In this document: positions 6,565 to 56,065 of the stretch, piece after piece
How positions within the stretch are numbered: the first letter of the stretch is position 1
How the letters are laid out: the number at the start of each line of letters is the position of its first letter
Assembly (NCBI RefSeq): GCF_026210795.1
Contig: NC_089452.1
Span: 620,001-684,000 of the forward strand
Reading direction: 5' to 3'
DNA length: 64,000 bases
From: Rhizophagus irregularis
Taxonomy: Eukaryota; Glomeromycota; Glomeromycetes; Glomerales; Glomeraceae
The notes under the pieces: generated by a model
The model's database searches: none
What the model was told of the DNA's origin: nothing
The model's input: only the letters and a program-made list of their open reading frames with translations
Position numbers and translations under genes: made by a program

Positions 6565-8263
6565 TAAAGATGGTGCCGCAAATAGGCAATTGCGGAATAA
6601 TTGCGATTTGCGACATTGCGGAACATTGCGGATTTTGAAGTCTACATATCCGCAATTCCGCAATCAGTAATTATCCGCAATTCCGCAATTTTTCCGCAAT
6701 TCCGCAAATAATCCGCAATTCCGTAATTAATTGCGGAATTGCGGAAAATTGCGGAATTGCGGAAAAATTGCGGAAAAAAATATTTTTTTTTATAACTAAC
6801 TATTTTTTTAAACTTACTAGTCTAAAAAATAAGTTCGTTATTAATAAAAATATTTAAAAAAAAATCATTTTTTCGTTAATATAATATTAAAAAAAAATGA
6901 TTTATTTTTTTAAAAAAAATTGGATCGGCCGGATTATATTACGGTTTATCAACACCGTTAAATTAACCGGCCGATATGGTTATTAAATTTATAAAAACAA
7001 AAAGAAAACGCTGGAACTATTAGTTCCGGCATATTTATATAGAAAAAACAAAAAAGAAAACGCCGGAACAATTAGTTCTGGCATATTTATATAGGAAAAA
7101 TAAAAAGAAAACGCCGGAACTATTAGTTCCGGCATATTTTATATAAAAAAAATAAAAAGAAAATGCCAGAACTAATAGTTCCGGCATATTATATATAAAA
7201 AATTAAAAAAAATGCCGGAACTAATAGTTCCGGCATATTTTATATAAAAAAATTAAAAAAAAATTAAAAAAAAATGCCGGAACTAATAGTTCCGGCATAT
7301 TTTATATAAAAAAATTAAAAAAATTAAAAAAAAATGCCAGAACTAATAGTTCCGGCACATTTTATTAAAAAAATTTAAAAAAAAATGTCGGAACTAATAG
7401 TTCCGGCACATTTTATAAAAAAAAAATTTAAAAAAAACGCCGGAACTAATGGTTCCGGCATATTTTATATAAAAAAAATCAAAAAAAAAACGCCGGAACT
7501 AATAGTTCCGGCATATTTTATATAAAAAATCAAAAAAAAAACGCCGGAACTAATGGTTCCGGCATATTTTATATAAAAAATCAAAAAAAAAACGCCGGAA
7601 CTAATGGTTCCGGCATATTTTATATAAAAAATCAAAAAAAAAACGCCGGAACTAATAGTTCCGGCATATTTTATATAAAAAATCAAAAAAAAACGCCGGA
7701 ACTAATAGTTCCGGCATATTTTATATAAAAAATCAAAAAAAAAACGCCGGAACTAATAGTTCCGGCATACTTTATATAAAAAATCAAAAAAAAAACGCCG
7801 GAACTAATAGTTCCGGCATATTTTATATAAAAAATCAAAAAAAAACGCCGGAACTAATAGTTCCGGCATATTTTATATAAAAAATTAAAAAAAAAACGCC
7901 GGAACTAATAGTTCCGGCATATTTTATATAAAAAATCAAAAAAAAACGCCGGAACTAATAGTTCCGGCATACTTTATATAAAAAATCAAAAAAAAAACGC
8001 CGGAACTAATAGTTCCGGCATATTTTATATAAAAATTAAAAAAAAACGCCGGAACTAATAGTTCCGGCATATCTTATATAAAAAATAAAAATAAAACCAC
8101 TGAAACTAATAGTTCCGGCGTTTTTATATATTATATAAGATTGCAAAAAAACACAGTTCCGGGCAGCCAATCAGAATTGCGGAATTACGGATTACTAACC
8201 GCAATTCAACACTAAATTCCGCAATATTGCGGAATTTGAAAATCATTTGCGGACCCATCCTTA
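6565..8263. mobile_element. Non-autonomous hAT-type element (MITE) with internal satellite
   Basis: The element is bounded by an exact 8-bp duplication CCGGTACC (6557-6564 and 8264-8271). Its terminal inverted repeats begin TAAAGATGG on the left and TAAGGATGG on the right (read inward), with about 15 of the first 18 bases paired. An 8-bp duplication with TAR-GATGG-type ends is the hAT signature. Both subterminal regions are packed with TTGCGGAAT/ATTCCGCAA palindromes. The interior is a hairpin satellite. There is no transposase, so it would depend on a hAT enzyme in trans. Insertion lies inside the coding-like sequence described at 6240-8656. Confidence 0.85.
7010..8122. repeat. Hairpin-forming satellite, about 22 units of roughly 50 bp
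   Basis: Each unit has a near-perfect 21-base palindrome GCCGGAACTAATAGTTCCGGC followed by an A/T spacer (CATATTTTATATAAAAAAT, then an A run). The first three units have the palindrome centre reversed (CTATTAG) and different spacers. Units at about 7480-8060 are nearly identical, which points to recent expansion. Apparent open frames through the array, repeating KYAGTISSGVFF, are artefacts of the repeat. Confidence 0.9.
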
Positions 8264-12500: not shown

Positions 12501-13642
12501 TTAAGTACTCTTTGTTTAATGTATTTAGAATATGTTTCTTCACGTACTGTATTGTTATTAGATATAATATCATGATAATGTCCTTTGCCATCAGGAAAAA
12601 GGTCAGGAAATAACAATGGTTCTAAATTTGAATCCTTCACAGATAGAGGAAGTAATGTATTTTCAGGTGTTCTTACAAAACCTGCCATTAAATGTGTATA
12701 ATGAAAGTCCTCATTATGAACTTCATTATTAAAATTAGTATTTGGGACTATAATATCATTATGTAAAAATGGTGGAGCTGAATCATCATTTGGTATGTGA
12801 AATGCTTTAGGGAAAGGATTTGCCATATCTGTGCCAGGTAAATCTAAGAGACGTGAATAAGGTCTTAAAAAGGGGTTATGCAATTTTAACCAGTTTGCTG
12901 CTGTAACCAATGTGTTATCTAACCAAGTATTATTTGAATTTAAATCCATGTTATCTTCAAGATATGCGCCAACCATTCCAGAATATAATATTAAAGAACG
13001 TGTATTTTTTGAAAAATTCATTGTACCAGTTAAGGTTCTATATTCTGAATATATAGCACTGTTTGCAGAATTTCTACCTAAAGAACAATGCATAAATACT
13101 GGAGATAAATACATTCTTCTGCCTAAAGGTACAGCTTTTATTTCATTAGGAACAGGGTAAAGGAAAGGAAATGCATATCTAGTTGAAGGTTTTTTACAAG
13201 ATAAACATACAGCAATACGATTTGGAGGTCTAGTATGAAATGTTAATAGTGAATCAAATGGTTTTTCAGGATATGCTTGTAAAAGGGGATAAGGAAAATT
13301 TTCATTATAAGGGAGCCATTCACATTTTTCAGGATACATGAGGCGTCCACAAAATGCACAAGGAGCACAAATAAATTGATTTAATATATTTGTTTCAAAT
13401 GTATTTAATAGTTTATTAAACTTTTGACTTGGTATCCAAGGATTGGTTGGTATGTACCTTTGGTTATCAATGGTAGAAAATCTTGAAGTGTATGAAGTAT
13501 TTAATATATTACCATTTTGAAGAGCTTGTAATTGATTTTGTAATTGTCTTAGCATATTCTCAGAATTATCTTGATAATTTAATTGTGGTTGAGATGATAG
13601 ATTAATATCAAAAATATAATGTTGAAAAATATGATAAGACAT
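9527..13642 (-). CDS. Helitron Rep/helicase (RepHel) protein
   Basis: The 1371-residue protein is uninterrupted. An N-terminal Cys-rich part (CAPCAFCGRLMYPEKC and CLSCKKPS) suggests zinc binding. The Helitron-like N domain and HUH Rep nuclease follow. The metal-binding His motif is at about residue 555 (GAAHMHGIYW) and the two catalytic-type Tyr are in YLSKYISK at about 676. A PIF1-family SF1B helicase fills the C-terminal third: Walker A GPGGTGKS near 965, Walker B LIIDEIS near 1041, then GDLAQLPPVTG, a VHKTQGLTL motif and the C-terminal YVALSRCPNW. It nicks and unwinds DNA for rolling-circle transposition. Length and domain order are normal for an autonomous Helitron. All catalytic motifs are present, so it may be active. 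Confidence 0.93.
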   Translation of the reverse strand: MSYHIFQHYIFDINLSSQPQLNYQDNSENMLRQLQNQLQALQNGNILNTSYTSRFSTIDNQRYIPTNPWIPSQKFNKLLNTFETNILNQFICAPCAFCGRLMYPEKCEWLPYNENFPYPLLQAYPEKPFDSLLTFHTRPPNRIAVCLSCKKPSTRYAFPFLYPVPNEIKAVPLGRRMYLSPVFMHCSLGRNSANSAIYSEYRTLTGTMNFSKNTRSLILYSGMVGAYLEDNMDLNSNNTWLDNTLVTAANWLKLHNPFLRPYSRLLDLPGTDMANPFPKAFHIPNDDSAPPFLHNDIIVPNTNFNNEVHNEDFHYTHLMAGFVRTPENTLLPLSVKDSNLEPLLFPDLFPDGKGHYHDIISNNNTVREETYSKYIKQRVLNIDSRFRLHHKWLAWSYLQLEKIRNHQNNQRLWKQKQTDRIHRPPTAAELIQRSSYTNGHIINESITTTLPTFIRTGDTYFHEKELHVNTMISEYGLPSLFVTLTMAESHWTHLHKILRVTDNHDTIPTNRPLHTTLHFIHRLQQLKKHVWKSPEHSRWAELIHFFERIEFQNRGAAHMHGIYWVSKTIQQMISENLIRSDLPDPNTEFDLYTKVKKHQIHVCSAKCGGQAAPGHTCKKGFSRPFSLTTYYDENTHRYIYKCIKPEDQWVVPYHPETLMIWDAHMNIQYVSSRGLARYLSKYISKSEPTHVFNIKEGDKFREHIIARRLGSMELMFLILGEVICNSSCAVEYLTTDPPTSRQKAIRSIYLIDNNDDPYWKDHIEKYFNRPLGDEFNNLTYPNYFKHYEITKSRPKTTIRQIHSDLLNNFVVKRTTPRLVRFRYLKLQDGEYYFYQKLLLELSCRSEEELLSTFQTYREHWLFLHPELHETIQEITQEYLRTQQLKLDAQFSQTLDTLLNNLQDIIPPSTSELINIQLTSLRINPPILPQCSTLNLPNDQLHVLSTIKNILGPKTQRNKYPYFFITGPGGTGKSFIINLIVNDLKNKRSKYLLLAPTGVASQNIGGQTIHSALRIREMQNGFQTLAFHDYEFFKNLQQIDTLIIDEISMVSAALLSFISEMFSVIQQTTIAFGGLNVIIVGDLAQLPPVTGLPVYKSSEWKLFYPLFLKEPQRQGQDPRYFNALQEIRMGKMTLNTWNFLYQKAAEFDQKSLHTTLDITNIVGYKETANRINNMICNMLPINQNKFLINSAVDFINGESYNPDESKKLFKSKTNYPNYVRLQQGIRVMYLKNDLAEHKICNGTIGIITDVDLEKLEVRVAFSVVGGIVDIIIKRDTATFFVDGKPSSRCQFPLQNSYALTVHKTQGLTLYKVSLFLDNQIFSAGQAYVALSRCPNWSNVYIAALNPSAFITDQSMIEEYERLEQIASTPLPL

Positions 13643-21131: not shown

Positions 21132-24100
21132 ATGATGAACAATAAAAAAAAAACACATTCTTTTAAGAAAAAACATTATAATAATCCTTCCCCTGTTAAT
21201 CAAAAATCACGTTCAAATTTAAATAATCAACAAATTTATCGTCCGAAAACATGTCAACGACTCAATTTATCAGATATAATTAAAATAGCTTCATTGAATA
21301 TTAAAGGTATAACTGATGTTAAAAAACAATTCTTAATTGATATATTAGGTGAATATAATATAACTATTTTGGGTCTATCAGAAACTAATATATCAAACAA
21401 AATGGCAAAACATTCTTTTAATTTTTATAGAAATAATTATGTTACTTATTTTGCAAATGAGGAAACTAATTATAGGGGAAATGGTGTAGGTCTTATTATT
21501 AAGAAAAATTATGCACGGCATATAGTCAATTATAATAGCTTCAAAGGAAGAATTATATATGTTGATTTTATTTTTAGTGGAAATAAAAAAATGAGAATCA
21601 TTAATTATTATGGAAAATCTGGACGAGTTACTTTAGACAATTTTAATCAAGAAGTTAAAATTTATTTTGATAAAATCAAAGAATTGGTTAGAGAAAGTAA
21701 AGCACAAAATGCAGAAATTATTCTCCTTGGTGATTTTAATCTTCATTATGAAAAATATCTGGATGATAAAAATAATAATCGTAAAATGAAAAAAGAACAT
21801 AAACTTTTTGAATGGATTGAAGATGAACAAAATTTTTATGATCCTTTCTATATCATGTTCGATAATTTATCACAACATTCCTTAAATACATTCTATCCTT
21901 TTAATACAAATCAAAATCCTTCTAGAATAGATTACATTTGGGTAACAGAAAATTTATTTTCAGAAACACAAGAATGCAAAATTGTTAATACAACAACAAT
22001 TAATACTGATCATAGAATGTTAGTGTATTCAATATGGTCAGAAGATTTGATTGGAAATATTGCTAATATCAAACGGAAGGAAGGATTTAAAGAAGTTTAT
22101 AAGTATGATAAAATGGATGGAGAGCAATGGGAATTATTTCAGAATGATCTTAATAAATACATTTCAAATTCAGAAATTTTAAAATTTAATTTTAACGATA
22201 AAAATAATATTAATCATATATGGGATAAGATCAAAAAAGGTCTTGTTCAAGCTAGTAAAAATTGTATTCCAATAGAAAAAATCAAATTAACTAAAAGTCA
22301 AGTCAACCCAATGAAAATATCTAATGCATATAAAGTAATGAAATTTTTAATAAATTTCAGACGTTCAATTAAAGATTCAAGAAAAAGAAATCATGTGATC
22401 AGAAATTGGATTACATATAGAAAAAAATTATTGGAAATTGGAAGAGAAAAAAGTGATTATTGTTGGAATAAAATTCCTAAGGATGATAAAAGTGTCAAGG
22501 AAATTTTTGAAGAAATAAAAAATTTATATCAAATTTATTTAATCCTATATAATCATGATCTTTTACAATTCAAAGAAGAAAAAATTAAACTAGCAATTGA
22601 CCAACGCTGTGAAGATTTATTAGAAAATCAAAAACGTATGATTAATAGTGTAATGGAACGTGAAATTAAATCCATTGTATTAGACAGAGTTCTAATTAAA
22701 GAAAATAATGAAGATAAATTAATCACTGATGAAGAAAAAATAAAAGATATTGTAAATGATCATTTTCAAAATATTGCAGGATCAACAAACCAACCTAAGA
22801 TTTTATCAGAATATTGGGCAAAATTTTATTTTCCTCAAGATGAAATTAATGATAAAATTTATAAAGATTTGATGGTAGAGCCTACAAATGATGAATTGAA
22901 TGAAGCTTTAAATAAATTATCAAATAATAAAGCTTCTGGACCTACGGGTATTAGTAATGAAATGTTGAAACACACATCTCCAGAATTTAAAGAAATTATT
23001 AGAAAATTAATTATTTTAATTTTTAATAATCAAGAGATACCATTAGAATGGAAATATGCTAATGTTTATCCTATACCGAAACCAAAGCCATGGGGTTGTC
23101 AACTAGTTAATACACGCCCAATAACTTTGTTAGAAACGGCTAGGAAATTAATGGTATCAATAATGAATGCAAGATTATCAACAATTCTTCAGAAAAACAA
23201 AATTCTTAAAGGTTTACAATTTGCTGGATTGCCTTTCAGTTCAACTTTTGAACCATTAAGGATTATTAATGAAATAATTCAAGATGCTAATGAGAATGAT
23301 AAGGAACTGTGGATTTTATCATTAGACATGTCAAAAGCATATGATCGTGTTAATATTTTTATGTTAGAAAAAGCTATGCAACGTCTTAAAATACCAAGTT
23401 CTTTTATTAATTTAACAAAAGAGTTATTTTTAGGACGGAAAAATAGTGTATTTACAGCAGGAGGATTAAGTAATCCATATGATGTAATGGTTGGAATCGA
23501 TCAAGGGGAAATAATCTCACCACTTTTGTGGTGTATATATTATGATCCACTTCTTACTGCCATACAGCAAGAACACTTTGGATATCGTGTAAAAGCAAAA
23601 AAGAAAATCAATTTATATGAAAATATAGAGGTAGAAGTAAAACAAAACATTACCAGCATGGCATATATGGATGATACTAATATGTTAGCTGGCAATAAAG
23701 AAGAATTAGAAAAAATATTAAAAACGGCTGATGACTTCTATACTCTTAACGATATTCAAATAAATAAAGAAAAATCTGAATTGTTACTTAAGAAAAAGAA
23801 TTTTAATTTTAATGAAAAAATAGAGTTAGAATTTGGCAATCAGAAAATCAAAATCAAACCTAAAGGAAAAACAGAAAGTCTTAGAATCTTGGGTGTTTGG
23901 TTCAATATATATAATGATAACAATTTTATCAAACAACAAGCCTTTGATGAAGTTAAAAATTTAAGTAATAACCTGCTGAAGAACAAATGCATAACAGATA
24001 AAATTAGTTCCTATATTTTTAATGCTGTAATATTACCACGTATCGAATATAGGACACAAACGATAATACTATCAGAAAAAGATTGTGAAAAAATCATGGT

Positions 24101-26639
24101 TCCTTATAGAAAAAATTTTAAAAATAAATTAAAGTTAGCTTCAACTGCACCAAATATAATTATGGAATTGAATTTATTATATAATATTCGTTCAATTTTT
24201 GATAATCAATTACAAGCTAAGGTTAATAATTTTATAATTCAAATTAATGATCAAGGAATTCTAGGAAAAATAATGGAGATTCGTTTAGTAGATATTCAAA
24301 ATAAACTACTTTTACCTTTCAATCCTTTAATTAATTTTCCTTTTTCTAATAAAGATTTAATCTTTATGGGTCAACATTTGCGAAATAATTTTATTATTAA
24401 TAATTTATTATTAATGAAAAGTTATAATTTTAGTATAGAATTTAATAAACACAATATTGGGAAAAATAGTACTGTATTAGGAAGGGGTCGTCATATTATG
24501 GAAATTGTTGGAACTGAAAGTTTTTTGAAAAATATAAAAATTTTACGTATGAATAATTTATACTTTTTGGACCAATTTTTATCTCCTGATAACAAAACTC
24601 TTCTGACATGGTGGAATATAAAAAATAAGATATTTGCTCTTAGTAATAATAGAAATAGTAATGTAGTTAATACGCCAAATATATATAAAAAAATTCAGTC
24701 TTTAGTTACAACTAATGGAAAAAATTATAATGTTAAAGAGGAATATATAGATAATAATGTAGTCACAAATTTGGGTGGTTATGAATTTTTACCAATTAAT
24801 ATTCATATTAATAATATTATAACATCTTTTAATATGTTTCATTTTGAAAATATTTATGGAAAAATAATTGAAGAAAAGCCCTTTACATATATTTTTGAAC
24901 ATTTTAAAAGAATATCAGACACAAGTGAAATTAATTTGTTTATTAAAGTATGTAATGGTTGTGAATATAATATTGGTCAAATAGAGGGTAAATGTATAAT
25001 AGAATCAATGAAAACTGAAATATATGAAGTGAGATATAAAAGACTTATTAAATGGAAGGGATATAAGGCATATCTTCTAAAGGAAGCACAACATAATTAT
25101 ATGGAAAATATTATAAGATATGATCAATTTTTTAAACGAAACCCTTTATATTACTCTTCATATGATAATTATCAATTACGTTTTGATGAAAATAGTTTAG
25201 ATATTATTGAAAAATATATAGATTTATCATTAGATAAACAGAAATTATTTGATTCAAGAAAAATTTTATATGATTCAAACATTAAAGATTTTGTTTGCTA
25301 TACAGATGGTTCAATTAAAGATATTACCAAAGAATATGTATCAGCTACTTTTGGAACAACTTTTTATAATTTGTCCTTGCAAAAAATTTTGGAATTAATA
25401 TCATCTTATAATAATTGGATTTCATCAACACGTGCAGAAATTTTTGCTTTATTAATTACTTTGCTAATAGCACCTTCTAATAGTAATTTAACAGTTTATA
25501 CAGATAGTGCTAGCGTTATTAGTAATTTTGAAAAATTTAAATTTTATAATTTTACTTTAGTTACTAGACAAATTTTTAAAATTAGTAATAACAACATTCT
25601 TTGGAAAATAATTATGGATATTATTAAAGAAAATAATTTATCTGTTAATATATTTAAAGTTAATGCTCATACAGATGATTCTTTAAATAATTATGTCGAC
25701 AATATTGTTTCTTTGGCACATAATGTTCAAAATTTAGGAATTAATTTAAATTATAATAATTTTTATGATCTTCCTTGGATTCCCAAATGGAATGGCATAG
25801 TTATAGAAAAATCTTTAAGAAAGTTAATTACATTAACAACCAATACGAAAAATTTGGAAAGGTTTTTAAATTTAAATAGAAATGATAAGTATAGAAAATG
25901 TGAAATAGATTGGTCAATTTTTTTTAATAATTTTTTGGGAGAAAAACAAAAATTATACACTGATTTCAAAGAATCAAAAATTAGAAGACGCAAAATTCAG
26001 TTGATGATTGAAGAACTTCCTTGCATTGAACAAATTAAAAGAACTTTATTTTCATTATATAAAGAAAGGTTTTGTCCTATGTGTGAAGAGGATGAAGAAG
26101 ATTTCAATCATATCTGGTTTTGTGAAGAAAGACGAGAGGATATGGATGATTTAATTTCAGGAGTACAAAATTGGCTTCTTTTAGAAATTAATAAAATTTT
26201 AGATCCTATTAATCATATTACTCTTGAACATATTAAAAATCTCAATGATATTTGGAAACTTGAAGTATCAGAGGATCACATAACTTTCATAGATTTAATT
26301 AAAGGTTTCTTTCCTTGTTCGTTAATTAATTTTTTTAAACAATTATTATCTACGAAATCAAAAGTTGAAATTTTGTCATATAATTTTAGGAATGAAATTT
26401 TGGATAAATCTATGATTTTTTGGAAAGTGAGGTGTAATAAACTTAATGAAATTGATAGAGGTTTGGGAATTGATAAAAATGTTAAAAAACAACATTTTGG
26501 TAAAGAGCAGTTTATTGACAAAACGCGTAAATCAAAAAATAAGAAATACTTTAATCTACAAAGTCTTCAAAGTCATATTTATTTTGGGGGTAATACAATA
26601 GATTACTATAATATTGTTGATTACGGTAGTGTTTCGTAG
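21132..26639 (+). CDS. LINE ORF2: AP endonuclease, reverse transcriptase, RNase H
   Basis: The 1835-residue protein is open throughout. An exonuclease-endonuclease-phosphatase domain is at about 55-320 (IASLNIKG, GLSETNIS, ILLGDFNLHYE, SRIDYIWV, TDHRMLVYS). The reverse transcriptase is at about 580-880, with NKASGPTGISNEMLK, LSLDMSKAYDRV and the catalytic YMDD near 845. RNase H is at about 1385-1525, with CYTDGS, RAEIFAL, YTDSAS and VNAHTDD supplying the D-E-D-D set. A C-terminal zinc motif CPMCEEDEEDFNHIWFC is at about 1647. It nicks target DNA and primes reverse transcription there. All catalytic residues I can check are present. The ATG at 21132 is followed at once by a second ATG. Confidence 0.93.
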   Translation: MMNNKKKTHSFKKKHYNNPSPVNQKSRSNLNNQQIYRPKTCQRLNLSDIIKIASLNIKGITDVKKQFLIDILGEYNITILGLSETNISNKMAKHSFNFYRNNYVTYFANEETNYRGNGVGLIIKKNYARHIVNYNSFKGRIIYVDFIFSGNKKMRIINYYGKSGRVTLDNFNQEVKIYFDKIKELVRESKAQNAEIILLGDFNLHYEKYLDDKNNNRKMKKEHKLFEWIEDEQNFYDPFYIMFDNLSQHSLNTFYPFNTNQNPSRIDYIWVTENLFSETQECKIVNTTTINTDHRMLVYSIWSEDLIGNIANIKRKEGFKEVYKYDKMDGEQWELFQNDLNKYISNSEILKFNFNDKNNINHIWDKIKKGLVQASKNCIPIEKIKLTKSQVNPMKISNAYKVMKFLINFRRSIKDSRKRNHVIRNWITYRKKLLEIGREKSDYCWNKIPKDDKSVKEIFEEIKNLYQIYLILYNHDLLQFKEEKIKLAIDQRCEDLLENQKRMINSVMEREIKSIVLDRVLIKENNEDKLITDEEKIKDIVNDHFQNIAGSTNQPKILSEYWAKFYFPQDEINDKIYKDLMVEPTNDELNEALNKLSNNKASGPTGISNEMLKHTSPEFKEIIRKLIILIFNNQEIPLEWKYANVYPIPKPKPWGCQLVNTRPITLLETARKLMVSIMNARLSTILQKNKILKGLQFAGLPFSSTFEPLRIINEIIQDANENDKELWILSLDMSKAYDRVNIFMLEKAMQRLKIPSSFINLTKELFLGRKNSVFTAGGLSNPYDVMVGIDQGEIISPLLWCIYYDPLLTAIQQEHFGYRVKAKKKINLYENIEVEVKQNITSMAYMDDTNMLAGNKEELEKILKTADDFYTLNDIQINKEKSELLLKKKNFNFNEKIELEFGNQKIKIKPKGKTESLRILGVWFNIYNDNNFIKQQAFDEVKNLSNNLLKNKCITDKISSYIFNAVILPRIEYRTQTIILSEKDCEKIMVPYRKNFKNKLKLASTAPNIIMELNLLYNIRSIFDNQLQAKVNNFIIQINDQGILGKIMEIRLVDIQNKLLLPFNPLINFPFSNKDLIFMGQHLRNNFIINNLLLMKSYNFSIEFNKHNIGKNSTVLGRGRHIMEIVGTESFLKNIKILRMNNLYFLDQFLSPDNKTLLTWWNIKNKIFALSNNRNSNVVNTPNIYKKIQSLVTTNGKNYNVKEEYIDNNVVTNLGGYEFLPINIHINNIITSFNMFHFENIYGKIIEEKPFTYIFEHFKRISDTSEINLFIKVCNGCEYNIGQIEGKCIIESMKTEIYEVRYKRLIKWKGYKAYLLKEAQHNYMENIIRYDQFFKRNPLYYSSYDNYQLRFDENSLDIIEKYIDLSLDKQKLFDSRKILYDSNIKDFVCYTDGSIKDITKEYVSATFGTTFYNLSLQKILELISSYNNWISSTRAEIFALLITLLIAPSNSNLTVYTDSASVISNFEKFKFYNFTLVTRQIFKISNNNILWKIIMDIIKENNLSVNIFKVNAHTDDSLNNYVDNIVSLAHNVQNLGINLNYNNFYDLPWIPKWNGIVIEKSLRKLITLTTNTKNLERFLNLNRNDKYRKCEIDWSIFFNNFLGEKQKLYTDFKESKIRRRKIQLMIEELPCIEQIKRTLFSLYKERFCPMCEEDEEDFNHIWFCEERREDMDDLISGVQNWLLLEINKILDPINHITLEHIKNLNDIWKLEVSEDHITFIDLIKGFFPCSLINFFKQLLSTKSKVEILSYNFRNEILDKSMIFWKVRCNKLNEIDRGLGIDKNVKKQHFGKEQFIDKTRKSKNKKYFNLQSLQSHIYFGGNTIDYYNIVDYGSVS

Positions 26640-31746: not shown

Positions 31747-34670
31747 ATGGCAACCGAATTTAGTAAATCAAATATCTTAGATATAGATACTAATACAATA
31801 AACACCAAAAATTGTTCGTATTGCAATATACCATTTACTGAAAAATTATGGTGTAAAGAATGTATCAATTCTTTGGAAAAATTAGCAGAAAATGGAGATA
31901 AAGAAGCAATGTTTAATTTTGCCAATTGTTATAGAGATGGAGAAGGAACTGAAAAGAATTTAGAAAAAGCCTTTCATTGGTATCAAAAAGCAGCAGAAAA
32001 TGGTAATGAAAAAGCAATGTTTAATTTAGCCAAATGTTATGTAAAAGGAGAAGGAACAGAAAAAAATTTAGAAAAAGCCTTTCATTGGTATCAAAAAGCA
32101 GCAGAAAAAGATTATACTAAAGCAATGTATAATTTAGCCATATTTTATGAAAATGGAAAAGGAACAGAAATGAATTTAGAAAAAGTTTTTCATTGGTATC
32201 AAAAAGCAGCTGAAAATGGTATTGAAGAAGCAATGAATAATTTAGCCAACTGTTATAAAAATGGAAAGGGAACAGAAAAGAATTTAGAAAAAGCTTTTTA
32301 TTTGTATCAGAAAGCAGCAGTAAGTGGTATTGAAGAAGCAATGTTTAATTTAGCCAATTGTTATAGTAATGGAGAAGGAACTGAAAAGAATTTAGAAAAA
32401 GCCTTTCATTGGTATCAAAAAGTAGCAGAAAATGGAGATGATGAAACAATGTTTATTTTAGCCAACTATTATAGTAATGGAGAAGGAACTGAAAAGAATT
32501 TAGAAAAAGCCTTTCATTGGTATCAAAAAGCAGCAGAAAATGGCAATAAAATGGCAATGAATAATTTAGCCAATTGTTATAAAGATGAAAAAGGAACAGA
32601 AAAGAATTTAGAAAAAGCTTGTCATTTATATCAGAAAGCAGCGGAAAATGGTGTTAATGAAGCAATGTTTAATTTAGCTGAATGTTATAAAAATGGAGAA
32701 GGAACGGAAAAAAATTTAGAAAAAGCTTTTCATTGGTATCAAAAAGTAGCAGAAAATGGTGATGAAGGAGTTGCAATTTTTAAATTAGCCAGATGTTATA
32801 AAAATGGAGAAGGAACGGAAAAAAATTTAGAAAAAGCTTTTCATTGGTATCTGAAAGCAGCAGAAAGTGGTAATGAAGAAGCAATGCTTAATTTAGCCAA
32901 TTGTTATAATAATGGAGAAGGAATAGAAAAAAATTTAGAAAAAACCTTTTACTGGTGTAAAAAAGTAGTAGAAAATGGTGATGAAGAAGGTGCAATTTTT
33001 AAATTAGCCAGATGTTATGAAAATGGAGAAGGAACAGAAAAGAATTTAGAAAAAGCTTTTCATTGTTATCAAAAAGCAGCAGAAAATGGTGTTATAGAAG
33101 CAATGAATAAATTAGTCAAATGTTATAAAGATGGAGAAGGAACAGAAAAGAATTTAGAAAAAGCCTTTTATTGGTATCAAAAGGCATTAGCAGAAAGTAA
33201 TAAAGTAAAGTCTAAAGATGAAGTTGAATTAGTATGTAATAAATGCAAAAAACCATATATTGATTACCCATGGTACCATCAATGTAATGAATGCAAACAA
33301 CCATTTATTGAGTACCAGTGGTGCCAACAATGTAATGTTAAACAATTTCAACAAGATTTTTCAAAGTGGACCAGTAAAAATGAATTTATTGATAAATTTA
33401 TTCAAGAAGCACAACTAAATGCTAAAAATAGTTATGGAATTTTAGAGTGGATACCTTATAATAAATTGCTAAATATTAGTTATTGTGATAAAGGAGGATT
33501 TAGTGAAATTCATAAAGCTATCTGGTCAGATGGTCCTATATTTAGTTGGAATTATAACAAAAAACAATGGGATAGACAAACAGATTATGAAGTCATTCTT
33601 AAAACACTTAAGAATTCATCAAATCTGAATAGTAAATTTCTTGATGAGGTATAGTATTTATTATATTTAACAAAATATTTTATTTTCTTTTTCAAAGTTT
33701 AATAACTTTTTTATTATTCATATAGTGGAAATATCATTATAATTGTCAGAAAAATTCATTTTCAAAATTTATTCAATTTTTTGGAATTACTCAAGATCCA
33801 AATAATCTAAATTATATAATAGTAATGAGTTATGCAAAAAAAGGAAATTTGAGAAAATGTTTATCTGATATAATTAAATTTAAGTGGCAAGACAAATTGC
33901 AATTATTGAAAAAAATTATATTAGGACTTAAAGTAATTCATGAATCAAATTTAACTCATGGCGATTTTCATGATGGCAATATTTTATTGTCAGATAATCA
34001 CAATGAGTTATTTATTATTGATTTAGGATTATGTAAACCTATAAATGGTTTAGATTCTGATAATAATAAAGTTAATGAAATTTATGGAGTTATGCCTTAT
34101 ATGGCACCTGAATTATTTAGAAATAAACTCTATACTCCAGAAAGTGATATTTATAGTTTTTCAATGATAATGTGGGAATTTACATCAGGTATTCCTCCAT
34201 TTTATGATAGAGCACATGATCACCATCTTATCTTGAGTGTTTGTAATGATGAACGTCCTGAAATTATTGAAAATACTCCAAAATGTTATATGGATTTAAT
34301 TAAAAAATGCTGGGATTCAAATCCTTCTAATAGACCAACTATAATAATGCTTGAAAACATTATATCTGAATGGATTAGATGTATTAATGAATTTTATGTA
34401 GCAAACAGAGATGGAAATTATGTTTATAAAGTATCTAATATTGATGGTCAATTAGAAGATGATATGTTTGAATTTGTAAAAGCAAACAAAGCTTTAGTAC
34501 AATCGCAAGAACAAGTAAATACTTCTATTATACAATCTCATCCACAAGCATGTTTTATTAGTCGCAATGTTACTAAAGAAATAGAAAAGTCTAAGAATGT
34601 TAGTGAAAGCATTGTTCAAGAATATTCTGCTGATTTGCAAGAATGTATGGTTAAATTTAAAAATCAATAA
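31747..34670 (+). CDS. Sel1-repeat TKL-type protein kinase, intact
   Basis: Two exons, 31747-33648 and 33726-34670, with a phase-0 intron (GTATAG...ATATAG, 77 nt), give 948 residues. Residues 20-45 hold a CxxC...CxxC motif (CSYCNIPF, WCKEC). Twelve 36-37-residue Sel1 repeats follow (about 47-482, consensus EAMFNLANCYKNGEGTEKNL). Next come CxxC pairs (CNKCKKPY, CNECKQPF, CQQC). The kinase domain spans about 572-855: Gly-rich GGFSEIHKA, Lys in VILKTL at about 619, catalytic loop HGDFHDGN near 712, DLG near 732, and APE in YMAPEL. HGD and DLG replace the usual HRD and DFG, which is common in related fungal TKL kinases and does not by itself imply inactivity. Sel1 repeats form a protein-binding solenoid. 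A signalling role is inferred; the substrate is unknown. Confidence 0.9.
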
Positions 34671-40120: not shown

Positions 40121-43100
40121 TCACAACCATTCAATAATATTTTTATTCTTCATTCTTTCCTCTTCATCAACTTCGTTATATTTATCTTGTACCCATTTTT
40201 CTATCATACTAAGAAATGCCCATCCTTTTTTTGTTTTCTCATTAGCAAATATTTCTATATTTTTATGATGTAACATTTCATTAGTAGTAACAATTATTAC
40301 TTTACATCTTGCTCTACTTATAGCTACATTCCATCTATTTATATTAAATAAAAATTCCGTTTCTTGTGGAATTTCACTTAAACTTATAAATCCAAAACAA
40401 GATATAACAAGGTCTGCTTCTTGTCCTTGCATTTTTTCTATTGTATTAATTTGTAAATTAATAAATTGATCATTTAAATATTTTACTAGACGTGATTGAA
40501 TCGCACGACGTTGTCGATGATATGGTGCTACTATAAATAAGGATGGTTTCTTCATTTCTCCTTGTGATATTTTTAATGTATCACAAAATTCTGAAGCTAT
40601 TTTCGCTACAGCGTCAGCTTCGATTTGTAAGAATTTAGTAGATAATAAACTAGATGCTGAATCAATATTTTTATCTAGAGAAAGTTTTACTAATGTAATT
40701 GCTGGATCTGGAGATAAAATTCTTTGAATTAACGGATTTTTAATATGATCTAATTTTGAATTATCAAAAGCTAGCTTCAGATTTGGATTTTTTGAAATAT
40801 AATCATCACTATAAATCTTTTGGAAGAACCCATTTAATTCATCATTCTGGATAACAAAACAAAAAAAAGATGAAATAATATTAATGTATAAAATAAATAA
40901 AATAAATAAATAAATAAATATATATATATTATATACCATTCTCCAATTTTCTCTGAGTTGAAGAGTAAGAGGTCCAAAGTCATGCTTCTGCCCTTTTTTC
41001 AAAAAGAAAGCTTTCTCATTAAAAACGGAACCATCACTTTTACGCATTAAACATTGTTGAATAGATCCAAATATGAGAGGATGATCAGGAGGAAATACGG
41101 GATATGTATTTTGAATAATAGGACCAAGTTGCTATATTTATCATTAATTCGTTAGAAATTAGTATAAATTTGATCAATATTTTAATTATTTAATAATGTT
41201 TACATTACCTTATGATCTCCAGCAACAATCAGTTTTCCTGTATACGGATTTATACATTCAATAGGAATGCTAGCATCTGAAACTAATAACTAAAAAATTA
41301 AAAAAAATTAAATTAAATATTCGCATTTATATCTATAAATGTTTGATAATTTTTTGCTTACCTGAGAACCCTCATCAATTATCATTATGTCACATCCGGC
41401 CCAATCAGATTTCCATTTCTTTCTTACTTTAAACCAGTCCCAAACTGTACCTCCGATTACAATTGGTTTTCCAGGAATTCCGATATCATTAATATTGGGT
41501 AAGTCTTCTACTTTATATTTTGTTCCAGTTGAAGGCTTGTTCAAATCATTCACTAAATAAATGATAGAAAAATCATTTATTTTGTGATGTTTTTTTTGTA
41601 CAGTTGAAATTCTATCCAATAAATTTTCAATAGCAGCTCTAGTAAAAGCTGTTACACCAACTATATAATTACTCGTCTTAACAGTACTCAAGTACCACGT
41701 GGTAAACAATGCAAGGAAATGTGTTTTACCGGAACCCTATTAAAATATAAATAAATGTATTAATAATAGCCTAATTACAAATATAAATATAAATAATATT
41801 TACTGGTGGTCCCCATATAATTTGAAGTCTTCTTCCTAGTAATAATTTATCCGAGATTTCTTTTTGTGATGGAGACATTGAAAAAGAATCTTGTAGCTTC
41901 AAAGCTGTATTTTCCACTTCTCCAAAATGTTCTTCAATTAAGGAAGAACCCCATGCATTAGGATCTTTTAAAAGATTCTATATTCAAATTAAGATTCAAA
42001 TTTAACGCAAATAAATAACTTTTTTCTAATAATCGTTTTGAGAGAAAATGGTACAAACCAAAAATATCGACTTATTATCATCTTGTTCATCTATCTCAGT
42101 TAGAATTGTTAATATTTTATCGAGATTGAAGTTAAAATAACGTTTATAAAGGCGATAGGTTTCATTTTCAATAAGCTCCTCCATAAAGGATCCCTTTAAA
42201 TAAATTATCTGTGTTTGTGGATCTTGATTTTCAACTTCCTTAATACATACTACCGATAAAGGATACGAATATTTATCTCGATATTTCATATCTGGAAAAT
42301 GGATTGCTTTTAGGACGTCCTAGTTTTATTTTTAAAGAAAAGAAAAAAATAAAAGTCCAAAATTTTTGATGTAAATTATAGAAAATAATATATATTAAGT
42401 TGTATATTACCTCCGGATTATCTTTAACCACGATAAAATCTTTAAAAGTACTATTAGGTTCTAATACACTAACTTCTTTTTGGTTACTTAAAATAACAAA
42501 TTTCGCAACATCTTTTTTCATATTAGTAAATTCCTTAAATTTTAGTCGAATTCCATATACAGTTTCACCTTGCATTAAATCATTAATTCTACTGGATCTA
42601 GTACGAGCACATTCAGTTATAGCTTCAAATTGTTTAAAAAAATATAGTTTACCCAGATAATTATTTTCAAAAGCTTTAATTTCAGTAAACGTAAAAACTG
42701 GTGGAGTAAATAACAATTTTAAATCAACATCATTAGTTGATTCGTTAAGAAGTTCATAATAAGAACTTATTACAGCAATTCCAAAATCAACTTTAAGTAA
42801 CTGAGCTGCATTAATTTCTGATATTGAACTTTGCGAAGAAACCCATCTAGCATAAATATCTTCTAAGTCGATATCTTTAATATGTTGTTCCAATGAATTT
42901 AACAGTTTCTCATCCTTTAATTTTGGCTTCACCAATTGTTCCCATATATCAATAAAGCGGTAAAATCCAGGTACATGAATTGCAATATTTGCTCTTATCG
43001 CAGTTTCTAAAACAAATAATCTTGGAAATTCTCGTAATTCATTTGGAAATTCCGTATTATTATCACTATTATTATTTCCTGAAGCTAATAAAAATGACGA

Positions 43101-44867
43101 ATTATCAAATAAATTATATAAACACCTCACAGCTATATGTTGCGTTGCACTTGAAATATTATCCTCATCCATAGAAATGATTTTCAGCAAAGCATCGTGA
43201 AGAGTTTTTTTTTCCTGTTCAGAAAAAATAAAGACGCAAGCTTTAGATTTAAGATTTGCTAAGTATTCAAAAATTTTTTCCAATGTAGTTACGAACTTAT
43301 CCATTAGAGAGACGAATGATTTTAAAGATTCATTATCCTTCAAAGATGATCCCGAACGTCTAAAATTTGATATAACTTTTCCATCACTAGAATAAAGACA
43401 TATTGCCCATCCAAAAGGACGTGATAAGAAAGGATCCAAAGACATCGCAATCAACAAGTTATGATCTGTTGTTTTGGGAAAATTTTCCGTTGCAATCCCA
43501 ATAAACTTTATAATATTGAATAAAGATTTATTAGTAAAAAATATAATCTAAAAATAAAAACAATAGACCATTGAACAATTATTTTTATACCTGTGCTTTT
43601 TTTGTTTCTATAGCTTTAAAATATGGTGAACTTTTCGATTTTTCATCATATTTAATGATTTGTTTAATTCTCTTGTTTATTATGGCTTTATCACTGGATT
43701 TTGCGTTCTCATCTTCAATATTTAATTTATTAAAGTAATTTGACAAATCTTCAATATCAACATCATCACCTGATTTCCGTTCTGGTATAAAAGATTTCAA
43801 CTCCTCAGCTTTCTTAAGCGGTAAATAAGGAATCATCGCAATAGAACCTTCAGCTTCTATTCTACAAGCATCTACAAATTCACAAGTTTTACATCTCAAG
43901 TTATAATGCCAAGGTACAGTTTCTTTAATTAAAATATTAGGTAACTCTTTGCGAAAGAATTCATCTATTTTTGAAAACAATGAGTCCACACGAAATTTAT
44001 ATAGTTGGAAAGGTAGTAAATAAATTCCACCCGTACGCGAAATACTAAGTCCACAAATCTTTTGAACTACAAAATTGAGAAGGTATGCATATGAAGCAAC
44101 TTGAAACTAAATAATTAAAAACATATGTTAATGAGCTTACATTTACAATAATAAATAGGTAAATAAATAAATAATCACGTTCTATACCAGATGTGTATCT
44201 TGTGCAGTTTTTGAAGCCTTTGCGTCATAAACCATCAATTTTTTCTCCCCATCTTCTTCTTTAACTTCAATAAAATCAGGTACAAAAGGTTTTAACTTAA
44301 TATCTTTTATACCCATTTTTTCATAAAATTCTTCGGGTACTATAAATTTCATTTGGTATAAAGTTTGACCAACTTCTATTTTTATTAACATATTTTTAGC
44401 CTCATAAGGTGAAACGTTTCGACAATCTACCACATTATTTAATTTATCCTTAATATCTGATTCAAATTTTTCTCCACGACGTCTTAAAGCTTCACGTAAT
44501 GTTGAATCAACCGTTTTAGGTACATATTTATTTTTTTTTGAAAATTCTTGTGATTTTTGTCTTTCGTAATTTCGATCTGACATGAGTTTTATCAACTTAT
44601 CACAATTAAAATAATAATATGTTGCTAAGTCAGATATCGATAGGGAAGTATTTATTTCTTCAAAAACTTCATTTGTCTTTGTTATCGTTAATCAGTAAGT
44701 TTTTATATTTTAAATAATCGAAAAGAAATTTACGTATAATAAAAAGTATAAATAAATAATAAAAAACATGGTTATAAACTTGTTTTTAAAAAATAATAAA
44801 AAAGAATGTCTGATATTTTATTTTATGAAATATACTTGCTAACCTTTTTTTTCCCGGCCTGCGACAT
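40121..44867 (-). CDS. Cas4/RecB-like nuclease - RNase H-like - SF1B helicase fusion (TM0106-type)
   Basis: Ten exons: 44867-44844, 44676-44188, 44106-43591, 43547-42411, 42319-42059, 41977-41804, 41736-41362, 41289-41209, 41131-40937, 40846-40121. Every exon is a multiple of three, giving 1325 residues with no break. Residues 33-252 form a PD-(D/E)xK nuclease: PDFIEV at 141, YDAK ending 161, QVASY at 173. Cys33 plus CKTCEFVDAC (243, 246, 252) make a Cas4/Dna2-type Fe-S cluster. Residues ~344-560 resemble the YprB-like RNase H domain, but where DIEGDP is usual it reads AMSLDP (377-382), so this domain is probably dead. The SF1B helicase has Walker A GPP/GSGKT (split by an intron), MIIDEGSQ, GDHK/QLGP, EKMQGQEADLV and NRWNVAISRAR. 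It is predicted to process DNA ends or repair intermediates. Intron 3 could instead end at 43508 (85 nt rather than 43). Confidence 0.85.
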
Positions 44868-51952: not shown

Positions 51953-54900
51953 ATGGAAACTGAATTTTGTGAATCAGATACCTCAGACAAAGATACTGAT
52001 ACAATAAACACCAACAATTGTTTGTATTGCAATATAACTTTTAATGAAAAATTATGTTGTAAAGAATGTATTAATTCTTTAGAAAAGTTAGCAGAAAATG
52101 GTGATAAAAAAGCAATGCTTAATTTAGCCACATGTTATATGAATGGAAAAGGAGTAAAAATGAATTTAGAAAAAGCTTTTCATTGGTACCAAAGAGCAGC
52201 AGAAAATGGAGATGGAAAAGCAATGTATAATTTAGCTATATGTTATAAAAATGGTCAAGGAACGGAAAAGAATTTAGAAAATACTTTTTATTGGTATCAA
52301 AAAGCATCAGAAAATGAAGATAAAGAAGCAATGTTTAATTTAGCCAATTGTTACTGTTTTGGAGAAGGAACAGACAAAAAATTAGAAAAAGCCTTTTATT
52401 GGTATCAAAAAGCAGCAGAAAATGGTGTTAAAGAAGCAATGATTAGCTTAGCCCATAGCTATTATAGTGGTAAGGGAACAGAAAAAGATTTAGAAAAAGC
52501 TTTTCATTGGTATCAAAAAGCAGCAGAAAATGATGTTAAAGAAGCAATGTTTAATTTAGCCATCAGTTATAGATATGGAGTAGGAATAGAAAAAAATTTA
52601 GAAAAATCCTTTCATTGGTATCAAAAAGCAGCAGAAATTGGCGTTAAAGAAGCAATGTCTAATTTAGGCACATGTTATAGTTATGGAGTAGGAACAGAAA
52701 AGAATTTGGAAAAAGCCTTTCATTGGTATCAAAAAGCAGCAGAAAGTGGAGATAAAGAAGCAATGTTTAATTTAACCAATTGTTATTATTTTGGAGAAGG
52801 TACAGAAAAGAATTTGGAAAAATCCTTTCATTGGTGTCAAAAAGCAGCAGAAAATGGTGTAAAAGAAGCAATGTTTAGTTTAGCTCATAACTATTATAAT
52901 GGAGAGGGAACAGAAAAGAATTTAGAAATAGCTTTTCATTGGTTTCAAAAAGCAGCAGAAAATGGTGTTAAAGAAGCAATGTTTAATTTAGCCATTGGCT
53001 ATAAATATGGAGAAGGAACAGAAAATAATTTTGAAAAAGCCTTTCATTGGTTTCAAAAAGCAGCAAAAAATGGAGACAAAGAAGCAATGTTTAATTTAGC
53101 CAATTGTTATTATATTGGAGAAGGAGTAGAAAAAAATTTAGAAAAAACCTTTTATTGGTATCAAAAAGCAGCAGAAATTGGTGTAAGCAAAGCAATGTTT
53201 AATTTAGCTGCAATTTATAGAAATGGAGAAGGAACAGAAAAGAATTTAGAAAAAGCCATTTATTGGTATCAAAAAGCAGCAGAAAGTGATGATAAAGAAG
53301 CAATGTATAATTTAGCCAACTGTTATAGAATTGGAGAAGGAACAGAAAAAAATTTAGAAAAAGCCTTTTATTGGTATCAAAAAGCAGCAGAAAATGGTGT
53401 TAAAGAAGCAATGTTTAGTTTAGCCTATAGCTATTATAATGAAGAGGGAACAGAAAAGAATTTGGAAACAGCTTTTTATTGGTTTCAAAAAGCAGCAGAA
53501 AATGGTGATAAAGAGGCAATGTTTAATTTAGCTATATATTATATGAATGGAAAAGGAACTAAAAAGAATTTAGAAAAAGCATTTTATTGGTATTAGAAAG
53601 CAGCAGAAAGAGATCATATTAAAGCAATGTATTATTTAGCCTCATGTTATGAAAATGGAGAAGGAACAGAACAGAATTTAGAAAATGCTTTTTATTTGTA
53701 TCAAAAGGCAGCAGAAAATGGAGATGAAGAAGCAATGTTTAATTTAGCCAATTGTTATTATTTTGGAGAAGGTACAGAAAAACAATTTGAAAAAGCCTTT
53801 CATTGGTTTCAAAAGGCAGCAAAAAATGGTGTTAAAGAATCAATGTTTAGTTTGGCCCATAGATATTATAATGGGAAAGGAACAGAAAAAAATTTAGAAA
53901 AAGCTTTTCATTGGTATCAAAAAGCAGTAGAAAATGGATATGAAAAAGCAATGAATAATTTAGCTTTATGTTATAGAAAAGGAGAAGGAACAGAAAAGAA
54001 TTTAGAAAAAGCCTTTTATTGGTATCAAGAAGCAGTAGAAAATGGTGTTAAAGAAGCATTTTTTAATTTGGGTACATGTTATAGAAATGGTGAAGGAACA
54101 GAAAAGAATTTAAAAAAGGCATTTTATTGGTTTCAAAAAGCAGCAGAATATGATTACATTTCAGCAATGTTTAATTTAGCTGCAATTTATGCAAATGGAG
54201 AAGGAACAGAAAAAAATTTAGAAAAAGCCTTTTATTGGTATCAAAAAGCAGCGGAAAATGGTGTTAAAGAAGCAATGGATTGTGTAGCTGATAGTTATGA
54301 AAATGGAGAAGGAACAGAAAAAAATTTAGAAAAGGCCTTTTATTGGTATCAAAAAGCGGCAGAAAGTGGTAATAAAAATGCAATGAATAATTTAGCCATA
54401 TGTTATGAAAATGGAAATGGAACAGAAAAGAATTTAGAAAAGGCCTTTCATTGGTATCAAAAAGCAGCAGAAAATGACTATACTAATGCAATGTTTAATT
54501 TAGCCAATTGTCATTATTTTGGAGAAGGAACAGAAAAGAATTTTGAAAAAGCTTTTAATTGGTATCAAAAAGCAGCAGAAAAAGATCAGATTAATGCAAT
54601 GCTTGGTTTAGCCATATGTTATGAAAATGGAGAAGGAACAGAAAAAAATTTAGAAAAAGCATTTTATTGGCATCAAAAATTAGCAGAATGTAACTCTAAA
54701 GATGAAGTTGAATTATGTAATGAATGCAAACATCCATATATTGATTATCAGTGGTGCCAACAATGTAGTATTAAACGATTTCAACAAGATTTTACAGAGT
54801 GGACTAGTAAAAATGCATTTATTGATAAATTTATTCGAGAAGCACAACTAAATGCTAAAAATAGTTATGAAATTTTAGAGTGGATACCTTATAATAAATT

Positions 54901-56065
54901 GTCAAATATTAATTATTATGATAAAGGAGGATTTAGTGAAATTTATAAAGCTATTTGGTCAGATGGACCTATATTTAGTTGGAATTCTGACAAACAACAA
55001 TGGAATAGACAAACAGATTATGAGGTCATTCTCAAAACACTTAACAATTCATTAAATTTGGATAGTAAATTTCTTGATGAGGTATAGTATTCATATTTAA
55101 TAAAAAATTTTCTTTTTTTTTTTTTCTTTTTCAAAAATTTAATAATTTTTTTATTATTTATATAGTGGAAATATCATTATAATTGTCAGAAAAATTCATT
55201 TTCAAAATTTATTCAATTTTTTGGAATCACCCAAGATCCAAATAATTTAAACTATATAATAGTAATGAGTTATGCAAAACAAGGAAGTTTGAGAAAATGT
55301 TTATCTAATATAATTAAATTTGAGTGGCAAGACAAGTTACAATTATTGAAAAAAATTATATTGGGTCTTAAAGTAATTCATGAATCAAATTTAACCCATG
55401 GTGATTTTCATGATGGCAATATTTTAATGTCAGATAATTATAATGAGTTATTTATTATTGATTTAGGATTATGTAAACCTATAAGTGAATTACAAAATCC
55501 TGACAATAGCCAGGTAAATGAAATTTATGGAGTTTTACCTTATATGGCTCCTGAAATATTAAGAAATCAACCCTATACTCCGGAAAGTGATATTTATAGT
55601 TTTTCAATGATAATGTGGGAATTTACATCAGGTATTCCTCCATTTAAAGATGAAGCACATGATTATCATCTTATCTTGAGTGTTTGTGAAGGGAAACGTC
55701 CTGAGATTATTGAAAATACACCAAAATGTTATGTAGATTTAATGAAAAAATGTTGGGATTCAAATCCTTCCAATAGACCAACCATAGAAATGCTTGAAAA
55801 TATTATATCTGAATGGATTAGATGTATTAATGAATATTATGAATTAAACAGTGGTGCAACTTATACCTATGTAGTACCTAATATTGATGATCAATTAAAA
55901 AATGATATGTTAGAACTTGTAAAAGTGAACAAAACTTTGGAGCAAAAGAAAGCAAATACTTTTATTATACAATTTCATCCACAGGCATGTTATTCAAGTC
56001 GCAAGCTTAGTGAAATTTATTTTCAAGAAGACTCTCAGGGCTATGATTGTATGATTAATGATTAA
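51953..56065 (+). pseudogene. Sel1-repeat TKL-type kinase with one in-frame stop
   Basis: A paralogue of the gene at 31747, with exons 51953-55081 and 55166-56065 joined by a phase-0 intron (GTATAG...TATATAG, 84 nt). Its 1342 codons include a single TAG at 53594-53596, in repeat 14 of 24 Sel1 repeats, where other repeats have CAA or CAG for Gln (WYQKAA). One C-to-T change of CAG explains it. Otherwise the frame is complete. The N-terminal Cys motif (CLYCNITF, CCKEC), the post-repeat Cys pairs (CNECKHPY, CQQC) and the kinase domain (GGFSEIYKA, VILKTL, HGDFHDGN, DLGLCKP, YMAPEI) are intact. A truncated 547-residue product would lack the kinase. The lack of other damage suggests a very young null allele, a stop that is read through, or a sequencing error. 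Confidence 0.85.
52091..54690 (+). repeat. 108-bp coding repeat array (24 Sel1 units) with higher-order structure
   Basis: All 24 units are exactly 36 codons. Pairs of the type DKEAMFNLANCYYFGEG then VKEAMFSLAHSYYNGEG recur at units 3-4, 7-8, 12-13 and 16-17, so blocks of four or five units seem to have been duplicated together. The paralogue has 12 units, two of them 37 codons long. Confidence 0.7.

Follow-up and report, generated by a model that had tools for sequence, protein, structure and literature searches.

A multicopy, intron-bearing gene of Rhizophagus irregularis with the predicted architecture of a Bad-type helicase-nuclease

We analysed a 64,000-nucleotide stretch of the Rhizophagus irregularis genome (NC_089452.1, positions 620,001 to 684,000; hereafter the window), located on contig C24 of a 146.7-Mb, 32-contig genome. 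The minus strand of the window carries, at 40121..44867, a gene whose sequence predicts an intact iron-sulphur (Fe-S) 'iron-staple' RecB/Cas4-type nuclease joined to an intact superfamily 1B (SF1B) helicase motor, and which is one of five open paralogs in the genome. It is probably an anciently acquired, intron-bearing, multicopy eukaryotic member, or a very close relative, of the kind of enzyme represented by Bad of Geobacillus stearothermophilus (WP_053413574; Wilkinson et al. 2020), described in the available text of PMC7430649 as a bacterial DNA2-like helicase-nuclease. If so, five open copies beside the fungus's own DNA2 would indicate a use for the Bad kind outside prokaryotes and offer a genetic setting in which to find its role, and the gene would be a well-formed case of a prokaryotic DNA-processing enzyme acquired and intronised by a fungus.

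Gene structure

The gene is real and intact, its ten open exons joining into one frame. An earlier sequence-only reading had described an intact frame of 1325 residues, the exact output of a simple GT-AG reading; the single open frame with its nuclease, middle and SF1B helicase stands, while the length does not. Spliced alignment with the paralogs placed the start of exon 4 at 43505, not 43547: the shorter intron 3 produces one or two frameshifts in three of the four full paralogs, the longer one none in any of the four. Because the paralogs show that intron 3 extends to 43506, the protein has 1311 residues rather than 1325, and the segment IIFFTNKSLFNIIK of the longer model is intron 3 sequence, namely its last 42 bases misread as 14 coding residues. 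The features are as follows, in window positions.

40121..44867, minus strand: whole gene, ATG to stop; 10 exons, 9 phase-0 GT-AG introns, 1311 amino acids (aa), intron 3 corrected with the paralogs
44844..44867, minus strand: exon 1, residues 1-8; the same exon is present in the C5 copy
44188..44676, minus strand: exon 2, residues 9-171; N-terminal half of the PD-(D/E)xK nuclease (Cys33, E80, D142, D159, K161)
44602..44604, minus strand: Cys33, first predicted Fe-S ligand; Cys in 48/48 aligned family rows
44218..44226, minus strand: nuclease motif III, D159-A-K161; D in 47/48 and K in 48/48 family rows
43591..44106, minus strand: exon 3, residues 172-343; C-terminal half of the nuclease (Q173, Y177, Cys243, Cys246, Cys252)
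43864..43893, minus strand: Cys243, Cys246 and Cys252, the other three predicted Fe-S ligands; Cys in 48/48 aligned family rows
43506..43590, minus strand: intron 3, 85 bases; acceptor AAAG/TTTATT, with which 4/4 full paralogs align without frameshift
42411..43505, minus strand: exon 4, residues 344-708; central region, with a weakly RNase H-like segment at about 350-540 that lacks the catalytic acids
42059..42319, minus strand: exon 5, residues 709-795; end of the central region
41804..41977, minus strand: exon 6, residues 796-853; start of the SF1B helicase, first part of Walker A (GPP)
41362..41736, minus strand: exon 7, residues 854-978; remainder of Walker A (GSGKT, K857) and motif II (DEGSQ)
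41209..41289, minus strand: exon 8, residues 979-1005; helicase motif III region (AGDH)
40937..41131, minus strand: exon 9, residues 1006-1070; helicase, ENWRM
40121..40846, minus strand: exon 10, residues 1071-1311 plus the stop codon; second RecA domain, with the motifs QGQE and NVAISRAR

Domain architecture

Pfam, NCBIfam, PADLOC and PDB sequence scans were run on the 1325-residue model. The helicase is clear (Pfam AAA_12, E value 2e-19; AAA_11, 5e-12), and all eight SF1B residues examined are intact. Matches to the nuclease are weak in Pfam (Cas_Cas4, E value 1e-3, 19.4 bits, under the cut-off of 22.7), and PADLOC returned a weak Cas4 match with partial matches to DpdJ and MkoA. The nuclease residues are nonetheless all in place (E80, D142, D159-x-K161 and Q173-xxx-Y177), together with four cysteines that are kept in 5/5 fungal copies and 43/43 other family rows and are predicted to hold an Fe-S cluster. 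Both the cysteine positions first proposed (33, 243, 246 and 252) and the union of a Cas4-like, putatively Fe-S nuclease with a DNA2/NAM7-like helicase in one chain were borne out. Besides the Pfam matches, the recurrence of this architecture in the four other full-length fungal copies and in prokaryotes speaks against chance.

The Cas4-like fold expected from structure prediction was recovered on a model of an archaeal homologue. The mean predicted local distance difference test (pLDDT) value of this model is 54.9, but most values across residues 90-220 are 80 or more, and residues 1-257 superpose on Cas4 (Z 13.4, 3.3 Å, 194 residues). The same domain also superposes on AdnA (Z 10.5), EXO5 (10.1), AddB (9.2) and Dna2 (8.6).

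The middle, proposed to be RNase H-like, has a weakly RNase H-like topology. A model of fungal exon 4 (mean pLDDT 47.5) starts beta-beta-beta-alpha-beta-alpha, and its best structural matches, among those listed, mix RNase H-like, actin-like and ribosomal folds; because the models are of low confidence and these mixed matches reach a Z of at most 6.9, the fold is a weak hint only. Pfam RNase_H_2 (PF13482) had no match at E<=1 in the fungal protein. The D-x-E of the RNase H domain is present in 6/6 rows of the bacterial TM0106 family, to which the gene had first been assigned, and in 0/48 rows of the present family, the five fungal copies included (L133 omitted); the distal D is present in 6/6 TM0106 rows versus 1/48 (the long-branch L064). 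With low certainty, the central region may be a non-catalytic RNase H-like or related domain. Its roughly 530 residues align throughout with the prokaryotic proteins, Bad's own centre being compared by description only. The PDB sequence matches of the fungal protein include no Bad-like full chain among solved structures, and the best of them is eukaryotic DNA2 (8e-8).

Prokaryotic relatives

The closest relatives found are full-length, single open reading frame (ORF) proteins, about 25% identical, from Methanoculleus-phylum archaea, planctomycetes and one clostridial-type genome, each label giving the group of the named genome used as search centre. A planctomycete-phylum protein of 1238 aa (L144) aligns with residues 19-1311 of the C5 copy in a single high-scoring segment pair (HSP; 5.6e-92), and another (L145) matches the fungus in two HSPs (2e-67 and 5e-15). 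A Methanoculleus protein of 1273 aa (L111) and the clostridial-type protein (L137) gave 9e-79 and 1e-72, respectively; in the scan of named genomes the same Methanoculleus gene, from Methanoculleus chikugoensis (L031), covers fungal residues 20-1301 among the matches listed (1e-72). A second Methanoculleus copy (L032:4737-8512) consists of two overlapping ORFs in different frames, reflecting either a broken gene or a sequencing error. Further relatives are encoded by one ORF of 1326 residues in the chloroflexote Chlorohelix and by ORFs of haloarchaeal plasmids. In tblastn searches against plasmids, the first relatives were two-gene alphaproteobacterial cassettes, a nuclease followed by a long DpdJ; as nearest kin, this pair was superseded by the closer full-length single ORFs from the genome searches. 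One family takes in the Bad-like proteins encoded by single ORFs, the unnamed nuclease that accompanies long DpdJ, and the haloarchaeal and Chloroflexota proteins, which are mostly annotated 'AAA domain-containing' only.

Profile searches of eight phylum samples placed the gene in 39 of 1982 prokaryote genomes, three of which (G001, G002 and G003) are centre genomes picked for having it. A counted match starts no later than model position 10 and extends over 80% or more of the model within one contig. The cut-off was 1e-25 for the Methanoculleus-phylum sample and 1e-60 for the others, and scores are inflated for three searched groups because the profile includes members of those groups. The counts are 17/246 for the Methanoculleus phylum (one, G168, in two pieces), 16/301 for Chloroflexota (G685 with an internal stop, G780 in two pieces of one contig), 3/199 for planctomycetes, 2/296 for Bacteroidota and 1/249 for the phylum of the lachnospiral genome. 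None was counted in the gammaproteobacterial phylum (0/349), the phylum of the Gaiellaceae genome (0/198) or the acidobacteria (0/144). Two of the three planctomycete matches stop near model position 1100 though their ORFs continue. Outside the count lie five more Chloroflexota genomes with the gene partial or over two contigs (G583, G576, G613, G693 and G701), one more planctomycete gene split over two contigs and a Gaiellaceae-phylum match spanning 148-1284 (G1473).

Phylogeny and origin

Two trees were built, a quick one of 54 rows and a careful one of 40 rows by 867 columns (IQ-TREE). L133, a wrong ORF, was omitted from both; the 40-row tree further omits eight Methanoculleus-phylum, two Chloroflexota and two TM0106 rows as well as the long-branch L064 and Haladaptatus2. 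TM0106 forms a separate group in the 40-row tree (100/100) and is a distant outgroup in both, and the Chloroflexota and haloarchaeal rows make up one branch. In the 40-row tree the fungal copies form a clade (100/100) with the rows of the Methanoculleus phylum, the planctomycetes and L137, within which they are sister to these rows and not nested among them (98/98).

Transfer of a prokaryotic gene into a fungal ancestor is our favoured reading of these sequences, not a result, the sole eukaryote compared being this genome. The alternative that survives best, although we regard it as unlikely, is that the gene is an old eukaryotic or fungal one that descended vertically, with the prokaryotes as distant cousins and no transfer into the fungal lineage. 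The comparison with a single eukaryote leaves room for such descent, as does the sister position of the fungal branch, and the approximately unbiased (AU) test marginally rejects a clade of the fungus with the Methanoculleus-phylum rows alone (p 0.045). Against vertical descent, the best tree has the fungus within the prokaryotic family, with Chloroflexota, haloarchaeal, Bacteroidota and DpdJ-linked branches outside the fungal clade; the prokaryotic spread is patchy; and the 2020 description of Bad, in its available text, finds the central domain in Bad but in none of the eukaryotic DNA2 proteins (PMC7430649). The placement inside prokaryotes that would support transfer is found in the best tree, but the AU test also leaves a basal place.

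Several points count against the interpretation of the gene as an acquired relative of Bad. The stem leading to the fungal copies, at 1.59 changes per site, is long and of biased composition, and an arrangement with the fungus and TM0106 on one side, that is, a basal place for the fungus, is unrejected (AU p 0.101); because of this stem and the two AU values, a basal place is possible and a donor may have been either an archaeon or a bacterium. Assignment to the Bad kind draws on architecture, length, the spacing of motifs and what the paper says of Bad, which was compared by description only. Foldseek alone found no match in the PDB for the archaeal homologue model at E<=0.001, the best being Cas4 (2.1e-3). 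A ratio of nonsynonymous to synonymous substitution rates (dN/dS) near 0.5 among the fungal copies is also compatible with relaxed constraint. Finally, ten large neighbour genes examined with Pfam, taken from seven regions (five Methanoculleus-phylum, one planctomycete and one clostridial-type) out of the many genes in ten regions, gave no sign of a common defence neighbourhood: they encode a sensor kinase, HerA, an NHL-repeat protein, a metallo-beta-lactamase, two chemotaxis receptors, a GH81-like protein, a sulfatase, an M16 peptidase and a Helicase_C protein.

Copies in the fungal genome

The gene is not a lone one: a search of the genome with its protein revealed near full-length copies on C5, C9, C20 and C21, giving five open copies. 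Two degraded copies were also found, one on C20 that is half-length and has two frame breaks and one on C9 reduced to a last-exon fragment, as were two tiny pieces. Protein identity among the five full copies is 54-79%, and all five retain the 11 nuclease/Fe-S positions and the 8 helicase positions. The C5 copy shares all nine introns with the window gene, and the other three have the eight later ones. Across all 10 copy pairs dN/dS is 0.35-0.58 (Nei-Gojobori, with no correction for A+T bias); taken by part, the nuclease gives 0.43-0.69, the middle 0.35-0.69 and the helicase 0.31-0.56. The protein is therefore kept, though loosely: maintained but quickly changing.

These copies could also be read as a mobile-element or selfish gene, carried as transposon cargo in a transposon-rich genome and serving no host function. 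Their number, the two broken ones, dN/dS values of up to 0.58 and the transposon-like ORFs seen by eye in the window would suit such cargo. However, since the eight later introns are common to all five copies, which are 54-79% identical, we take them to be DNA-level duplicates of an old gene; given also five open frames with every catalytic residue examined, a purely selfish gene seems improbable.

Family assignment

The sequence-only reading had placed the gene in the TM0106 family (TIGR03491), a RecB-like nuclease fused to a helicase and transferred from bacteria. To its credit, domain order is identical, many tblastn helicase matches, among those listed, are annotated as TM0106 family, and the basal place beside TM0106 survives the AU test. 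However, TIGR03491 had no match to the fungal protein at E<=1 and none in six frames of the genome, and the two closest prokaryotic relatives tested scored 29.7 and 34 bits, where the cut-off is 97.45 and a control TM0106 protein of Rhizobium reaches 257.9 bits. Two plasmid TM0106 proteins match the fungal protein in the helicase only (best 5e-26), and at E<=0.1 the fungal nuclease matches the nucleases linked to DpdJ, whereas the two TM0106 proteins tested gave no match to it. We rejected membership on the model score and the catalytic D-x-E, the outgroup position of TM0106 in the trees concurring, and consider it very improbable.

The view that kinship is prokaryotic rather than with DNA2 held up. 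PF08696 is absent among the 11 Pfam matches to the fungal protein at E<=1, which led us to reject the fungal DNA2 as its identity; the one PF08696 match in the genome lies on C31 (1.9e-47), so the replication-type DNA2 of the fungus is a separate gene. A viral origin was likewise rejected: two scans of viral contigs held no relative, and phages gave one helicase-only match.

Gene neighbourhoods and possible role

Eight haloarchaeal loci were fetched, and some members of the family keep defence-like company. One lies between a Piwi protein and a metallophosphoesterase with an ATPase annotated for double-strand break repair (L023:5559-16503), possibly a defence cassette. Another adjoins genes for a restriction enzyme of the SacI family and for a cytosine methyltransferase (L026:2778-10215), the latter recalling the Type III-like methyltransferase that Bad adjoins in Geobacilli (PMC7430649, available text). 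Two more are beside restriction endonuclease genes (L025 and L028), three have helicase, nuclease or HNH genes near (L027, L029 and L030) and one has thymidylate synthase and dihydrofolate reductase genes near (L024). The DpdJ of the nuclease-linked pair is a defence-system protein by PADLOC. Chlorohelix has no defence-like gene among the annotated neighbours. In one Methanoculleus-phylum genome a HerA-like (DUF87) gene immediately adjoins the family gene (L166:5647-7281).

By analogy with the biochemistry of Bad and DNA2, the enzyme would thread onto a free 5' single-stranded end, translocate 5' to 3' with ATP and unwind the duplex, the strand being cut ahead of the motor such that 5' flaps and overhangs would be trimmed; the central region may recognise DNA or a partner. 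As the tree suggests, a fungal ancestor would have obtained the gene from an archaeon or bacterium, after which it gained introns and was duplicated several times. The weakest step is the use to which the enzyme is put, which we infer to be the processing of aberrant or foreign DNA, whether in repair or to counter mobile DNA, and not the part of the replication DNA2. A role in genome maintenance or defence would fit; of the two options, repairing aberrant 5' ends or defending against mobile DNA, the second is slightly favoured by the copy number and the loose constraint. It is a doubtful further step that an early arbuscular mycorrhizal fungus domesticated a prokaryotic restriction-like helicase-nuclease into a small, fast-evolving set attacking mobile or foreign DNA in its transposon-rich, multinucleate cytoplasm, as the first eukaryotic Bad-type system.

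Among the titles and abstracts listed in one open-licence library, none describes a Bad of a fungus or of any other eukaryote. In their available text, the main body of a survey of horizontal gene transfer in R. irregularis mentions no helicase, nuclease or RecB, while containing several unmatched 'hypothetical proteins' (PMC5982333), and a term search of the genome paper showed helicase, nuclease, RecB and DNA2 all to be absent (PMC10234402). The available text on a giant-virus region concerns 1.5 Mb on chromosome 8 of strain 4401 (PMC10640383).

Other features of the window

On both sides the gene is flanked by Sel1-like repeat frames followed by kinase-like frames (31747-34670 and 51953-56065; names given by eye), the Sel1-like repeats being 108-base tandem units. 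The window also contains an open frame of 1371 aa at 9527-13642, which by eye we take to be Helitron Rep/helicase-like, and one of 1835 aa at 21132-26639, by eye presumably a LINE-type (long interspersed nuclear element) endonuclease and reverse transcriptase. At 6993-8131 a 51-base unit containing the near-palindrome GCCGGAACTAATAGTTCCGGC is repeated 22 times in tandem.

Comparison with known systems

TM0106 proteins share with the fungal protein the order of a Cas4-like nuclease, a middle that is RNase H-like, weakly so in the fungus, and a DNA2/NAM7-like helicase. They differ in retaining D-x-E and exceeding the model cut-off, neither of which the fungal protein does, and they lie on the opposite side of a long branch.

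In the long DpdJ pair of alphaproteobacterial plasmids (PADLOC PDLC02895, tested on L015 and L018), the nuclease is about 770 aa long, carries the same motifs and likewise has no D-x-E; an SF1B helicase is fused to the N-terminus of DpdJ, and together the pair matches the nuclease and helicase parts of the fungal protein. It differs in being two genes, the second of which runs on into the DEAD/DpdJ core that the fungus lacks: the stop of the fungal frame follows residue 1311, 63 residues beyond the last helicase position examined, and its PADLOC match to DpdJ spans only positions 47-478 of the 2112-position profile. The plasmid nuclease is unnamed by Pfam and PADLOC and matches TIGR03491 in part, under the cut-off (31.9-46.8 bits). 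Its gene is immediately followed by a long one of AAA/DpdJ type in three alphaproteobacterial plasmids with annotation (L015:4656-6980, L017:4162-6450 and L018:2171-4486), and a fourth, unannotated plasmid of Azospirillum has the nuclease with a helicase match behind it. The DpdJ core belongs to superfamily 2, YprA family (PMC12458937); that paper, as far as its available text goes, treats DpdJ and sets eukaryotic YprA aside, and Cas4 and DNA2 are absent from its main text.

Eukaryotic DNA2 also has an Fe-S nuclease ahead of an SF1B motor, but is without such a central region (PMC7430649, available text), and its domain PF08696 is unmatched by the fungal protein. The nuclease domain probably shares its fold with EXO5 and Cas4, judging from the modelled archaeal homologue. 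EXO5 and Cas4 themselves are not known to have a helicase in the same chain.

The closest likeness is to Bad, for which we follow the available text of PMC7430649. Bad is an Fe-S protein of 1245 aa, an ssDNA (single-stranded DNA)-dependent ATPase, a 5'-3' translocase/helicase and an ssDNA endonuclease favouring 5' overhangs; its central domain is absent from eukaryotic DNA2 and it has relatives in Euryarchaea. Bad-like enzymes are rare and prokaryotic, with a role given there as unknown. The spacing from the nuclease D to the Walker K is 665 residues in Bad by the paper's numbers (D150 and K815), 693-704 in the fungal copies (698 in the window gene), 644-690 in 20/21 sister rows (761 in the remaining one) and 617-649 in six TM0106 rows; the value for Bad thus falls within the range of those 20 sister rows and exceeds that of TM0106. 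By its description Bad has the same arrangement as the fungal protein, an N-terminal four-Cys Fe-S RecB-type nuclease, a central domain that may correspond to the fungal central region, and a C-terminal SF1B helicase in one chain; unlike Bad, the fungal gene is eukaryotic, has nine introns and is present in five open copies.

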